DNA from: Alphaproteobacteria bacterium | GTDB taxonomy: Bacteria > Pseudomonadota > Alphaproteobacteria > Micropepsales > Micropepsaceae | Length of the DNA stretch: 64,000 nucleotides | Direction of reading: 5' to 3' | Assembly: GCA_947474645.1 (NCBI GenBank) | Contig: CANJJD010000004.1 | Location: forward strand, 62,001-126,000 | In this document: in pieces, positions 35,740-41,192 of the stretch | Layout of the letters: the number at the start of each line of letters is the position of its first letter | Numbering within the stretch: the stretch's first letter is position 1 | Notes under the pieces: model-generated | Seen by the model: the letters and a program-made list of their open reading frames with translations, nothing else | Told to the model about the DNA's origin: nothing | Database searches by the model: none | Made by a program: the position numbers and the translations under genes

Positions 35740-37377
35740 TCAGGGCGTGCCGGGCTTGTAGCCGGGCCCGCGCAGCACCCGCCCGGGTGTTGCGTTGGTG
35801 GGCTTGCTGTCGGCCACAACCGCCTTGCCGTTGACCAGCACCCAGGAGATGCCGGTGGGATACTGGTCCGGCTTGGCATAGGTGGCGGTGTCCTTGACCG
35901 TGTCGGGATTGAACACCACCACGTCCGCCTTCATGCCCTCGCGGATAAGCCCGCGGTCATGCAGGCTCAGCCGGTTGGCTGCCTGGGAGGACAGTTTGCG
36001 CACCGCTTCTTCCAGCGAAATTATGTGCCGTTCGCGCACCACGTCGGACAGGATGCGGGCGTGGCTGCCGAAGGAACGCGGATGCGGGATGCCGAACGAG
36101 GTGTGCACCCCGGCCGGCAGGGCGATGCCGTCCGAACCGATATCCACCCAGGGATACCTGAAGGACTCGGCCACCGCCTGTTCGCGGGCGGGATTGGGCG
36201 GGCCGATATGGAAGCCCTCGGCCTTCTGCTCGACCAGGAAATCCACCATCGCTTCTTCCGGCGAGATGCGGGTGCGATCGGCCACCTGCTGCATGGTGTA
36301 GCCGTCATACTTCAGGTTGGCGGAAGCGAAGTGATAGTCCTTGTACTGGCCGGGATTCTGCTGAAGCTCCTTGACCACGCGGGCGCGGTTGGCCGGGTCC
36401 TTCAGCCGCGCGGTGATGGCGGCGGCGTCACCGACCTGCGCCCATACCGGCAGCAACTGGCGCACATAGGTCCAGCCGATGGTGTAGGGATAGGCGTTGG
36501 CGGTGATGTCCACGCCTTCGGCGCGCGCTTTCTCAATCATCGGCGCGAAGTCGGGATTTCCGGCGATGGTGCCGCCGACATGCAAAATCTCCACCGGGAT
36601 ATGGGCGCCGCGCGCGATGGCGATGGTTTCCTCCAGGCCGGACAGGCCGGGACCGGGGCGCATATGCACTGTGTAGATGCCGCCATATTCGGCCGCGACC
36701 TTGGCCAGCTCGATCATCTGGGCGGTGTTGAAAAAGGAGTTTGGCAAGTAATAGAGGCCGGCGGAAAGGCCGGCTGCCCCCTGCTCCATGCCCTGGCGGA
36801 TCAGGGCCTTGATCCGGTCCATCTCGGCCGGTGTCGGCTGGCGATCCTCATACCCCATCGCCGAGGCGCGCACCTGGCCCGCACCGACATAGGATACGAC
36901 ATTGGGGCCGATGCCCTTCTTCTCCAGGTAATCGAAGAACCCGCCCAGGGTGGTCCAGGTCCGCTTGACCGGCGGCGCCAGCATCATGGGATCGTCCACC
37001 GCCGGGCCCAGCACCGGACCGGCCGACAGATGCTCGCCCATCAGTTCGGTGGTGATGCCTTGCGTCACCTTGGAAAGACCGCGGCCGTCAAAGGCCAGGC
37101 CGAATTCCGAATGGCTGTGCATGTCGATGAAGCCCGGCGCCACCACCTGGCCGGTGGCGTCGACGGTCTTCTTCGCCCTTACCGGAGCGCGGCCGACATA
37201 GACGATCTTGTCGCCGGTGATGGCGACATCGGCCTGCATGCGCGGGCCGCCGCTGCCGTCCACCACCTGGCCGTTCTTGATCAGAAGGTCTACCTCGCCC
37301 GCAGGCGCGGCAAAACTTGCCAGCACCGGAACGGAAGCGAACAAAAGCGTGGCGGCGAGAAATTTGCGTAAAATCAT
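35740..37377 (-). CDS. exported N-acyl-D-amino-acid deacylase (D-aminoacylase family amidohydrolase)
   Basis: The 545-residue protein has a Sec signal (LAATLLFASVPVLASFA) and a D-aminoacylase-type amidohydrolase domain. Metal ligands appear as HSH in VAPGFIDMHSHSE, a His in IYTVHMRPG, a His in VEILHVGG, and the catalytic Asp in VDIGSDGIAL. At the position of the metal-bridging Cys of Alcaligenes D-aminoacylase the sequence is GEHLSAGP, suggesting the Glu-bridged variant. It would hydrolyse N-acyl-D-amino acids in the periplasm. It is 12 bases after a cytochrome c gene and, further upstream, a DAO-like flavoprotein, a context supporting D-amino-acid release followed by oxidation. Confidence 0.85.
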   Translation of the reverse strand: MILRKFLAATLLFASVPVLASFAAPAGEVDLLIKNGQVVDGSGGPRMQADVAITGDKIVYVGRAPVRAKKTVDATGQVVAPGFIDMHSHSEFGLAFDGRGLSKVTQGITTELMGEHLSAGPVLGPAVDDPMMLAPPVKRTWTTLGGFFDYLEKKGIGPNVVSYVGAGQVRASAMGYEDRQPTPAEMDRIKALIRQGMEQGAAGLSAGLYYLPNSFFNTAQMIELAKVAAEYGGIYTVHMRPGPGLSGLEETIAIARGAHIPVEILHVGGTIAGNPDFAPMIEKARAEGVDITANAYPYTIGWTYVRQLLPVWAQVGDAAAITARLKDPANRARVVKELQQNPGQYKDYHFASANLKYDGYTMQQVADRTRISPEEAMVDFLVEQKAEGFHIGPPNPAREQAVAESFRYPWVDIGSDGIALPAGVHTSFGIPHPRSFGSHARILSDVVRERHIISLEEAVRKLSSQAANRLSLHDRGLIREGMKADVVVFNPDTVKDTATYAKPDQYPTGISWVLVNGKAVVADSKPTNATPGRVLRGPGYKPGTP

Positions 37378-37389
37378 GACAGTCCCCTG

Positions 37390-37818
37390 TTATCGCGCCT
37401 TGGCGCGTTTTTTTGGCGGCATGGAATCGAATGTGATGGCCTTCTGGTCGCTGGCGGAGGTGCCCAGTTCCTTTGTCCCCGCCGGAAAGCCGTTGCTCTT
37501 GAGAATGAAGGCAGTGATGTCGGCATTGACGGCCGGGCTGAGGGAGCCGGGACGGCCCAGCGGCATCGCCTGGCTGATATACTCCACCAGCACATCCAGG
37601 GTGGTGCCCGACCAATAGGGCACAAAGCGTCCCACCAGCGGCGGAATCTCGAAAGTGCCGGAAAGGTTCGCGCCATGGCAGCGGCCGCAATTCTGCTGGT
37701 AGGAGGTGGCGCCGCGCGCCGCCTGGTCTTCTGTGTAGGCGCCGTCCCACACGGAACGCGCCTGGGCGCCTTGCGCCGCCAGCAGAAAACCAACACCCAG
37801 AATGATTTTGCGCATCAT
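37390..37818 (-). CDS. small periplasmic c-type cytochrome
   Basis: A 142-residue monohaem cytochrome c. It has a Sec signal (ILGVGFLLAAQGAQA), the haem site CGRCHG (about residues 44-49) and a later methionine ligand candidate in ISQAMPLGRPGSL. Between them is the short helix pattern of class I cytochromes. It starts 8 bases after the DAO-like gene and ends 12 bases before the deacylase gene, so all three are almost certainly one transcript. The best guess is electron acceptor for the flavoprotein. Confidence 0.9.
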   Translation of the reverse strand: MMRKIILGVGFLLAAQGAQARSVWDGAYTEDQAARGATSYQQNCGRCHGANLSGTFEIPPLVGRFVPYWSGTTLDVLVEYISQAMPLGRPGSLSPAVNADITAFILKSNGFPAGTKELGTSASDQKAITFDSMPPKKRAKAR

Positions 37819-37826
37819 GTTGCCCT

Positions 37827-39077
37827 TTATGCCTGTTTCACGGAGAAGCGGGCGAACAGATCTTCGATCACCTTCACGGCGCGATCGGATTCGGCACGGT
37901 TCACGCTCTCATCGCTGTTGTTGTAGCCCTTGAGCTCGCCATTCTCGAGCGCGATCACCATGATGCCGTCGCTCTTGGACAGAATCTGCACATTGCGATA
38001 GGTCAGGCCGTAATTGACCTCGGGCTGCGGGATCAGCCAGCCGGTCTGGCCCCGCACCGGCACCATGGCCTTGTCCTTCCACCAGTCGCGCGCCGCCATG
38101 CCGGGGCAGTTGATCACCACCTTCTGCGGCAGGTGGCCCAGCTCGGACGGGGAATGGAAATTGCGCATCACGATCTTGCCGCCCGCCGCGAAGAACTGGT
38201 TGGTGAGCAGATGGCCATATTCGGTGAAGTTGAAGAACAGGTTGGTCGAGCGCGAGGCATACTTGACCGGAAACGGGTTGATGTCCGGCGTGAGCTGCTG
38301 GGGAAACGACGTAATATCCCGGATGCGGTCATTGTAGCGGGCGAAATCCTCGCCATGGGTGGGCGCTCCCGCCCAGGTCGGCGGCGGCAGCGGCATCACC
38401 GTGGCGTCCACCGGCTGCGGCGTGCCGCGCGGCGCATCGGTCAGGTAATAATGGTCGCTGAAGGCGACCGGGTTGCCGGCGATGCCGATATATTGGCGCA
38501 AGGTCTTCCAGGAGGAGCGCGCCATGATTTCCCAGGTCTGGCCGAAATTGGCCGGGGCTTCCGACGTCAGGGCGATGCGCGAATCCGGGGTCCAGGCGCC
38601 GTTGGCCCGCACCGAACGGGTGCGCGGCAACAGCTCGCGTGTATAGATGGTCACCTGGGCGCCGGCGCGCTGGGCGGTGATGGCCGAGGTCAGGCCGATG
38701 ATGCCGCAGCCGATGACCGCGATTTCCTTGGGACTGCGGGACATGGCCTTTTGCACCGCCATGTCGGCCGATCCCCAGGACAGCGACCAGCCCGAGCCGC
38801 CATGGCCGTAATTGTGCACCACCATGGCATCGCCGATCTGCTCCACGTCCAGGTTGGGACCTTTGGTGCGGAAGGGGCGCAGGCAAACTTTAAAGTCGAA
38901 AAAGCGGTCGGCACGGGCGCGGACCGGCGCCAGAACGGGCGGACGGTCCATCAGGGGGACGGTGGAAACCGGCTGGGGCGCCGCACCCGGCGCGGCACCA
39001 GGGGTGGCGGCGCAACCGCCCAGCCCCATGACCCCGCCCAGCGCGAGCGAATTCTTCAACAGATGCCGCCGGTCCAT
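37827..39077 (-). CDS. Tat-exported lipoprotein D-amino-acid oxidase-like flavoprotein, circularly permuted
   Basis: The 416-residue product starts with a Tat lipoprotein signal: MDRRHLLKNSLALGGVMGLGGC, lipobox Cys at 22. Residues 60-111 (CLRPFR, VVHNYGHGGSGWSLSWG) match the segment that ends eukaryotic D-amino-acid oxidase (VRPQIR, VIHNYGHGGYGLTIHWG). Only afterwards, at residues 123-128, comes the FAD Rossmann motif GCGIIG that starts DAO. The rest (VVINCPGMAARDW, VRGQTGWL) follows DAO order and ends near DAO residue 265. Export through Tat fits a folded FAD enzyme. With a cytochrome c gene 8 bases downstream it may act as a D-amino-acid dehydrogenase. The ATG at 39077 was chosen over the track start because it begins the signal. 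Confidence 0.85.
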   Translation of the reverse strand: MDRRHLLKNSLALGGVMGLGGCAATPGAAPGAAPQPVSTVPLMDRPPVLAPVRARADRFFDFKVCLRPFRTKGPNLDVEQIGDAMVVHNYGHGGSGWSLSWGSADMAVQKAMSRSPKEIAVIGCGIIGLTSAITAQRAGAQVTIYTRELLPRTRSVRANGAWTPDSRIALTSEAPANFGQTWEIMARSSWKTLRQYIGIAGNPVAFSDHYYLTDAPRGTPQPVDATVMPLPPPTWAGAPTHGEDFARYNDRIRDITSFPQQLTPDINPFPVKYASRSTNLFFNFTEYGHLLTNQFFAAGGKIVMRNFHSPSELGHLPQKVVINCPGMAARDWWKDKAMVPVRGQTGWLIPQPEVNYGLTYRNVQILSKSDGIMVIALENGELKGYNNSDESVNRAESDRAVKVIEDLFARFSVKQA

Positions 39078-39520: not shown

Positions 39521-40081
39521 CTAGCGCGGTACGGGCGCGGTGTAATTCCACACATGCGCGGGTGGGAAGTTGCGCCACACCGGCGTCTTGCTGAGATTCA
39601 TCCCGGAACCCGGCGGCACCGGCGGGCGCCAGCTATAGGAGAGTTGCACAAACCGGCCGCCATGCTCCTGACATTCCAGGGCGCGCCGCAGCAGCGACTG
39701 CCGATCGGCAAGCGGAAACTGCAGCAGCGGCAGTCCGGAGACGATGGCCGCAACGGGCGCGCCTTGGGGAAGAAAACGCTCGAAGTCCAGCGCATCGCCT
39801 TGATGGACCCGCACCGCCGGAAAGCGGCCGCGCAGCAGCCGGGCGAAAGACTCCGTCTGCTCGATCAGGATCAGCCGATGCGAGGCGATGCCCCGCTCCA
39901 ACAGCGCCTGGGTAACGACACCGGTCCCGGGACCCAGTTCGACCACCAGCCCATCTACGCCCGGATCAACCTGGCCGGCGATGATGCGCGAAAGCGTGGG
40001 ACTGGACGGAGTGGGCGCGGAAACGCCGCGCGGATTGCTGATCAGCCCCCGCAGAAACTCCCCATAGGCAACGGCGCTCAT
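39521..40081 (-). CDS. class I SAM-dependent methyltransferase (PmtA/phospholipid N-methyltransferase-like)
   Basis: The 186-residue protein has the SAM motif LVVELGPGTGVVTQALLERG, LILIEQTESFARLLRGRFP, and QGDALDFERFL, the arrangement of PmtA-like and rRNA-dimethylase-like small methyltransferases. The start of alphaproteobacterial Pmt proteins (FLRGLISNPRGVSAPTPSSPTLSR) is also recognisable. Such enzymes convert phosphatidylethanolamine to its methylated forms at the membrane; this function is inferred. The ATG at 40081 begins the recognised domain; the track start at 40288 lies inside the upstream dehydrogenase gene. Confidence 0.78.
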   Translation of the reverse strand: MSAVAYGEFLRGLISNPRGVSAPTPSSPTLSRIIAGQVDPGVDGLVVELGPGTGVVTQALLERGIASHRLILIEQTESFARLLRGRFPAVRVHQGDALDFERFLPQGAPVAAIVSGLPLLQFPLADRQSLLRRALECQEHGGRFVQLSYSWRPPVPPGSGMNLSKTPVWRNFPPAHVWNYTAPVPR

Positions 40082-40139
40082 CTCGGCCCCTGGCTGGTGA
40101 CCTTGGGTCAATGCAGAGCGGGCGCGAGAGTTCCCTTCT

Positions 40140-41192
40140 CTAGCGTCCCAACCGCGCACGCTGGGCGGAAAGCCGTTGCGCCCAGGAAGAATTGTCCAGC
40201 GCAGCGCGATTGACGATAGTTCCGGTGGGGACGCGGCCATCGCAATATTCCAGCACCGCCTGGATATCCAGCGCGCCCTGACGGGCAAAGCATTGATCGG
40301 TCCAGCACAAGGCGTGCGGCGTCAGGATGACGTTATCCAGCGCGAGGATGGGATCGCCGGGATCGGGCGGCTCCTGCTCCAGAACATCCAGGCCGGCGCC
40401 CGCAATACGGCGCTCCTGCAGCGCCTTGGTCAGCGCTTTCTGGTCCACCACCGGACCGCGCGCCGTATTGATCAGGTAGCTGGTGGGCTTCATCAGCGCC
40501 AGGCGCTCCGCACTGACGATATGCCTGGTTGTGTCGGTCAGGGGACAACTGACCGACAGCACGTCGGAGCGGCGAAACAGATCTTCAATGCCGACCAGCT
40601 CCACGCCGAGCTCCGCCATCCGTCCGGCGTCGGCGAACGGATCATGGGCGATCAGCTTCATGTCGAAGGCCTTGGCCAGGCGCAAAGCCTCGGCGCCGAT
40701 ATTGCCGACACCCAGCGAGCCGAAGGTGCGCCCCACCAGGCCCACGCCCATATGGGCGCCGCGCTGGGCAAACCCCGCCGCGCCCGCACGGGTCAATTTT
40801 TCCTTGATGGCCAGCTTTCCCGTCAGCGCCAGCATCAAGGTGATGATCGACACCGCCACCGGCCGGCGCACCGATTCCGGCGTGATCACCAGGGCAATGC
40901 CCGCATCGGTGCAGGCCTTCACGTCCACCGTGTCGTATCCCACCCCGAAGCGGGCGATGACGCCCAGGCGGCCGCTCCTGGGCACGCTGCTTTTATCGAA
41001 GCGATGGGCCAGAAGAATGAGTGCATCGACATCTTCCAACTGCCCGGCGCTGATCGGGCTCTCGGATTCCAGAAACACGGTTTCGACGCGGGGATCCTGC
41101 AGCAACGGCGCAAGATCGAAATCGCGGAAGGTCGCAGAACCGTCGGCATTGCGAAAATCCGCCGAAAGCGCGACACGAAATTTTTCTGCCAT
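40140..41192 (-). CDS. D-isomer-specific 2-hydroxyacid dehydrogenase
   Basis: The 350-residue protein has the two-domain fold of the family. The NAD site is GSLGVGNIGAEALRLAKAFDM. Catalytic residues are Arg in LINTARGPVVDQKAL, Glu in VLEQEPPDPGDP, and His in ILTPHALCWTD. The substrate is not determinable: phosphoglycerate, glyoxylate or other 2-keto acids are possible. It is divergent from an HpcH/HpaI aldolase gene (164 bases between starts), an arrangement seen where a 2-keto acid produced by the aldolase is reduced by the dehydrogenase. Confidence 0.9.
   Translation of the reverse strand: MAEKFRVALSADFRNADGSATFRDFDLAPLLQDPRVETVFLESESPISAGQLEDVDALILLAHRFDKSSVPRSGRLGVIARFGVGYDTVDVKACTDAGIALVITPESVRRPVAVSIITLMLALTGKLAIKEKLTRAGAAGFAQRGAHMGVGLVGRTFGSLGVGNIGAEALRLAKAFDMKLIAHDPFADAGRMAELGVELVGIEDLFRRSDVLSVSCPLTDTTRHIVSAERLALMKPTSYLINTARGPVVDQKALTKALQERRIAGAGLDVLEQEPPDPGDPILALDNVILTPHALCWTDQCFARQGALDIQAVLEYCDGRVPTGTIVNRAALDNSSWAQRLSAQRARLGR

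Follow-up and report, generated by a model that had tools for sequence, protein, structure and literature searches.

The window, by which we mean the whole 64,000-nucleotide stretch of DNA analysed here, contains on its minus strand a gene whose product is related to D-amino-acid oxidase (DAO), followed by genes for a cytochrome c and an amidohydrolase. The features of the locus are listed below.

37827..39077, minus strand: permuted DAO gene, 416 amino acids (ATG at 39077, stop codon TAA at 37827-37829)
39012..39077, minus strand: Tat signal and lipobox, residues 1-22 (RRHLL ... LGGC22)
38748..38900, minus strand: moved DAO C-terminal segment, residues 60-110, with R67 and HNYGHGGSG (7ct4 321-371; Pfam DAO 306-352)
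38727..38747, minus strand: new linker between the old C- and N-ends, residues 111-117
37848..38726, minus strand: canonical N-terminal and middle part, residues 118-410, with the FAD Rossmann motif GCGIIG and the substrate domain (Pfam DAO 2-298)
37390..37818, minus strand: exported c-type cytochrome with one CGRCH haem motif (Pfam Cytochrome_CBB3, 4e-10)
35740..37377, minus strand: exported D-aminoacylase-like amidohydrolase (Pfam Amidohydro_3)

Upstream of the permuted enzyme lies a PmtA-like gene (phospholipid N-methyltransferase; window 39521-40180, minus strand), whose match is below the curated cut-off.

Re-reading of the open reading frame placed CLRPFR at residues 65-70, VVHNYGHGGSGWSLSWG at 86-102 and GCGIIG at 123-128, exactly where the first-pass annotation had positioned these motifs. 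That annotation had proposed that the DAO fold is rearranged here into the order C-segment, N-segment, middle, with the chain ending near DAO residue 265 and a short linker bridging the joined ends. In the native chain, residues 119-409 matched positions 2-298 of the 353-position Pfam DAO profile and nothing followed, so that the protein ends before the canonical C-segment. Scanning of the N-terminal part alone revealed the missing portion, with residues 62-109 corresponding to profile positions 306-352 (20.4 bits). The DAO-profile homology thus extends over the full length of the protein, in two stretches natively and in one after rotation: when residues 115-416 were joined in silico to residues 45-114, the chain gave a single Pfam DAO stretch (2-351 of 353), scoring 69.5 bits as compared with 60.8 bits for the native chain. 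The separately matched HMM segments were three, in the order C, N, middle.

Comparisons with canonical enzymes gave the same picture. The native protein aligned with Rasamsonia DAO (7ct4) in pieces that were out of order, residues 116-345 on 23-239 and residues 60-110 on 321-371, and the moved part by itself matched canonical DAO structures (33.8 bits for the latter alignment). The cleanest case was the relative L064, whose native sequence matched DASPO in two non-colinear stretches (76-328 to 8-266, 62.1 bits; 24-68 to 284-331, 20.0 bits) and whose rotated sequence matched it in a single colinear stretch (14-330, 83.4 bits). The native L064 alignment stops at DASPO residue 266, and the chain of the permuted protein ends at about DAO residue 265. 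We also aligned all circular rotations of the window protein's mature chain globally to five canonical enzymes, with shuffled and canonical sequences as controls. The score was highest, at 148, for rotation at residue 108, as against 94 for the native order, a median of 94 and no more than 18 for shuffled sequences. All of the 27 relatives scanned peaked at the same junction, which lies between HxYGH and GxGxxG; for the canonical enzymes the peak fell at their own natural termini. The resemblance of the moved part to DAO is therefore not a matter of chance. Total phmmer scores of rotated and native chains do not discriminate, because separate domains are summed, and an hmmsearch best-domain rotation scan was uninformative for the same cause; the single-stretch and global-alignment tests were used instead.

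The canonical order, with the FAD motif first and the arginine and HNYGHGG last, was found neither in the window protein nor in any aligned relative. A second copy of the moved segment at the C-terminus, which the first-pass annotation had named as incompatible with its proposal, was searched for in every relative and not found. Judged from its sequence, the window protein is a natural circular permutation of the DAO/DASPO fold. The proposed order, chain end and linker (residues 111-117) were all borne out by these analyses and by the conservation of the order in a monophyletic family, described below.

The C-N-middle order was kept in all 34 permuted proteins that we aligned, which are about 25-89% identical and span Alphaproteobacteria, another class of Pseudomonadota and one actinomycete. 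Conservation was full-length in native order in L001-L012, same-order full-length relatives occurred in Alphaproteobacteria MAGs, and the four copies in the window's own genome aligned natively over their full length; an unrotated Pfam scan placed the C-part ahead of the N-part in the three paralogues. These paralogues (L016, L017 and L018) are 64-69% identical, lie in the same 2.6 Mb genome and have no lipobox; one has a cytochrome neighbour and another a divergent deacylase, and they may act on different substrates. Clear matches were present in 15 of 299 sampled Pseudomonadota genomes, one of which (G210) is outside Alphaproteobacteria, and relatives were present in 15 of 385 sampled Alphaproteobacteria genomes. 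Permuted relatives were also found on plasmid-collection records of Kozakia, Niveispirillum, Rhizobium, Bradyrhizobium, Mesorhizobium and the actinomycete Nonomuraea; viral contigs yielded only three. On Mesorhizobium onobrychidis pOM4, the permuted enzyme is encoded by two overlapping open reading frames (L102:3968-5031) with the break just inside the FAD motif, which points to a frameshift in this copy or to an error in sequencing. A 1.9 Mb Alphaproteobacteria genome encodes, on the minus strand (L096; G419:C93:12979-13713), a highly divergent homologue that is also permuted and carries a Sec-type signal, HNYGHGGSGWTLGPGS; this suggests that the permuted family is broader than our sample.

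Every complete protein examined had one HxYGH motif, and a search of all loci for a tandem or double-motif intermediate found none. From HxYGH to GxGxxG, the exported members measured had a spacing of exactly 35 residues, and L063 and L064 one of 39. In a tree built on rotated sequences, in which the canonical set consisted of five sequences (pig DAO, human DASPO and three bacterial canonical enzymes), the permuted proteins formed one clade with a bootstrap of 100, so that a single origin is likely with respect to these five. The rearrangement would go back to a single ancestor, in which about 7 residues came to link the canonical N- and C-termini and the chain opened anew in a loop, the one that runs from the last helix of the middle part to the strand bearing the carboxylate arginine. 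When the 299 Pseudomonadota genomes were queried with a canonical Streptomyces DAO, permuted members were retrieved in ten and no canonical HNYGHGG enzyme in any. Candidates in four genomes (G054, G261, G190 and G291) were rejected as canonical DAO; they are ThiO/DadA-like proteins without the HNYGHGG motif. A canonical DAO is present on a Vibrio plasmid, and colinear matches also occur on Burkholderia plasmids.

Structure prediction was in keeping with a retained fold. An initial AF2 model based on 12 close relatives was poor (pLDDT 49), and a second one, of residues 45-416 with 15 sequences, reached moderate confidence (pLDDT 68, pTM 0.71). The top 32 Foldseek matches of the second model were all DAO or DASPO, the best being human DASPO (TM 0.60), and residues 84-112 of the moved part were modelled as the expected strand and helix. 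The permuted chain probably still folds as DAO does, and its moved segment would then occupy the canonical position. Mapping of pig DAO numbering through the rotated alignment showed which catalytic elements persist. The GxGxxG glycines (G123, G125 and G128 in the window protein), the carboxylate-binding arginine (pig R283, R67 here) and the positions of pig H307, G310, G313 and G315 were each invariant in 34 of 34 permuted proteins. A carboxylate substrate is likely for the permuted enzyme.

The N-terminus of the window protein combines DRRHLLK, a hydrophobic stretch and LGGC22, that is, a Tat signal with a lipobox; the earlier claim that such a signal is fused to the moved part was upheld, and the protein is a predicted Tat-exported lipoprotein. 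The twin arginines and lipobox are common to most exported relatives, and the lipobox cysteine was lost in one subclade (L008-L012 and the three paralogues). Five relatives (L064, L065, L067, L068 and L071) have no signal sequence and are nevertheless permuted, which indicates that the permutation is not tied to Tat fusion or export.

The cytochrome c gene begins 8 nt after the stop codon of the permuted gene and the deacylase gene 12 nt after that of the cytochrome, in an apparent operon. Both downstream products start with a signal sequence by reading, and among PDB entries the deacylase matched 3gip, an N-acyl-D-glutamate deacylase (1e-56), and 1rjp, a D-aminoacylase (6e-55). Within the clade bounded by the window and Kozakia proteins, a cytochrome gene directly follows the permuted gene at 12 of 17 loci (the window, L001-L009, L050 and Kozakia) and is absent from the remainder (L010-L012, L048 and L049). 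The deacylase comes next after the cytochrome in L001-L004, L006 and L007; in L008 and L048 it is divergent. In Kozakia baliensis, the enzyme is 49% identical and the cytochrome, 41% identical, lies 5 nt downstream; this cluster also carries peptidases and a canonical-order enzyme of the DAO superfamily.

The apparent association with a cytochrome c and a D-aminoacylase-like deacylase favours a dehydrogenase over an oxidase. We propose that the permuted enzyme would be exported by the Tat pathway and then lipid-anchored at the outer face of the inner membrane, where it would oxidise D-amino acids, or related D-compounds, that the neighbouring deacylase may release outside the cytoplasm. Electrons would pass to the neighbouring cytochrome c, a putative acceptor suggested by gene adjacency, and the enzyme would be a D-amino acid dehydrogenase and not an H2O2-forming oxidase. 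To this explanation as a whole, a permuted DAO/DASPO-fold enzyme acting as an exported, lipid-anchored, cytochrome c-reducing D-amino acid dehydrogenase, we assign a probability of roughly 0.7.

The cytochrome neighbour is lacking at five loci of the clade and beside more distant exported relatives, which counts against this explanation. Tyr228 of pig DAO was kept in 11 of the 34 permuted proteins; the position is Gln, Glu, Asn or Ser in the window's branch (Gln in the window protein), where the active-site lid, residues 216-228, is gapped or missing. These losses make activity on D-amino acids uncertain in this branch and suggest an altered or wider substrate pocket. Together with the invariant R283, they would suit recruitment of the permuted fold to another substrate, such as an N-substituted D-amino acid, a D-peptide end, a 2-hydroxy acid or an amine, and rhizobial cytoplasmic relatives do adjoin a berberine-bridge-type FAD enzyme and a thiamine pyrophosphate (TPP) enzyme. 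The D-aminoacylase-like deacylase in the same operon argues against such recruitment, as does the full retention of the carboxylate arginine, and we regard it as rather unlikely. On the two rhizobial plasmids concerned (L067:4485-8711 and L068:3372-7699), the signal-less permuted enzyme lies between an FAD-binding oxidoreductase, of the berberine-bridge type in L067, and the thiamine pyrophosphate enzyme in identical gene order; the cluster looks like an undescribed small pathway.

Alternatively, the protein might be a true periplasmic oxidase that transfers electrons from its substrate to O2, yielding H2O2, with the cytochrome serving another process. The nearest solved relatives are all oxidases, and more distant exported relatives have no cytochrome neighbour. 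The recurrence of the cytochrome gene directly next to the permuted gene at most loci of the window-Kozakia clade speaks against this idea, which we consider improbable. A domain-swapped dimer, in which the moved segment would complete a partner's active site and not its own, is very improbable, since a linker of about 7 residues suits closure within one chain and the AF2 model places the expected strand and helix in the moved part. We found nothing in favour of an assembly or annotation artefact, or of an unrelated oxidoreductase to which a C-terminal piece of DAO has been fused, and conservation refutes this reading: order and spacing are identical across genomes, plasmids and MAGs of independent origin. 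Outside the moved part, moreover, the protein is DAO as well, with precisely that part missing.

Our searches of an open-access library turned up no publication on a permuted DAO, and a study on the mining of new DAOs does not mention permutation (PMC9844085). Natural permutations conserved in so well-studied a flavoenzyme are unusual, and because this one extends through a whole family, it allows folding and catalysis in a fold of pharmacological importance to be examined as a clean natural experiment. Proteins labelled merely 'FAD-dependent oxidoreductase' gain an identity through it, and it suggests that canonical-order searches miss most DAO-type enzymes of Pseudomonadota. Should the cytochrome coupling hold, there would be a respiratory route for D-amino acids separate from DadA. 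A broader scenario, which we put forward tentatively and at somewhat less than even odds, is that the DAO/DASPO fold of Pseudomonadota is mainly permuted and of single origin, that its exported branch consists of D-amino acid dehydrogenases that are lipid-anchored and coupled to cytochrome c, and that the move of the C-segment freed the buried Rossmann N-terminus for an export signal and lipid anchor.

Among known systems, human DASPO (6rkf), pig DAO (1an9) and Rasamsonia DAO (7ct4) have all Pfam DAO segments in common with the window protein, including the FAD motif, the carboxylate arginine and the HNYGHGG strand-helix, and DAO/DASPO proteins headed both the sequence and the fold searches. 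Unlike these enzymes, the window protein has the C-N-middle order and a Tat signal with lipobox, and its branch has neither the lid nor Tyr228. The nearest canonical-order bacterial enzymes, from Nocardia (L099), Streptomyces (L100) and Vibrio (L101), are 27-32% identical to rotated L064 and differ from the window protein in their canonical order and absence of a signal sequence. DadA and ThiO likewise belong to the Pfam DAO superfamily, but they have the canonical order and no HNYGHGG motif, a similarity at the superfamily level only. DadA passes electrons to the respiratory chain. Tolerance of circular permutation by an FAD protein, including a 3-1-2 order, has a precedent in the artificially permuted flavoprotein LucY (PMC4408115), although that permutation was engineered in the laboratory and in a fold different from that of DAO.
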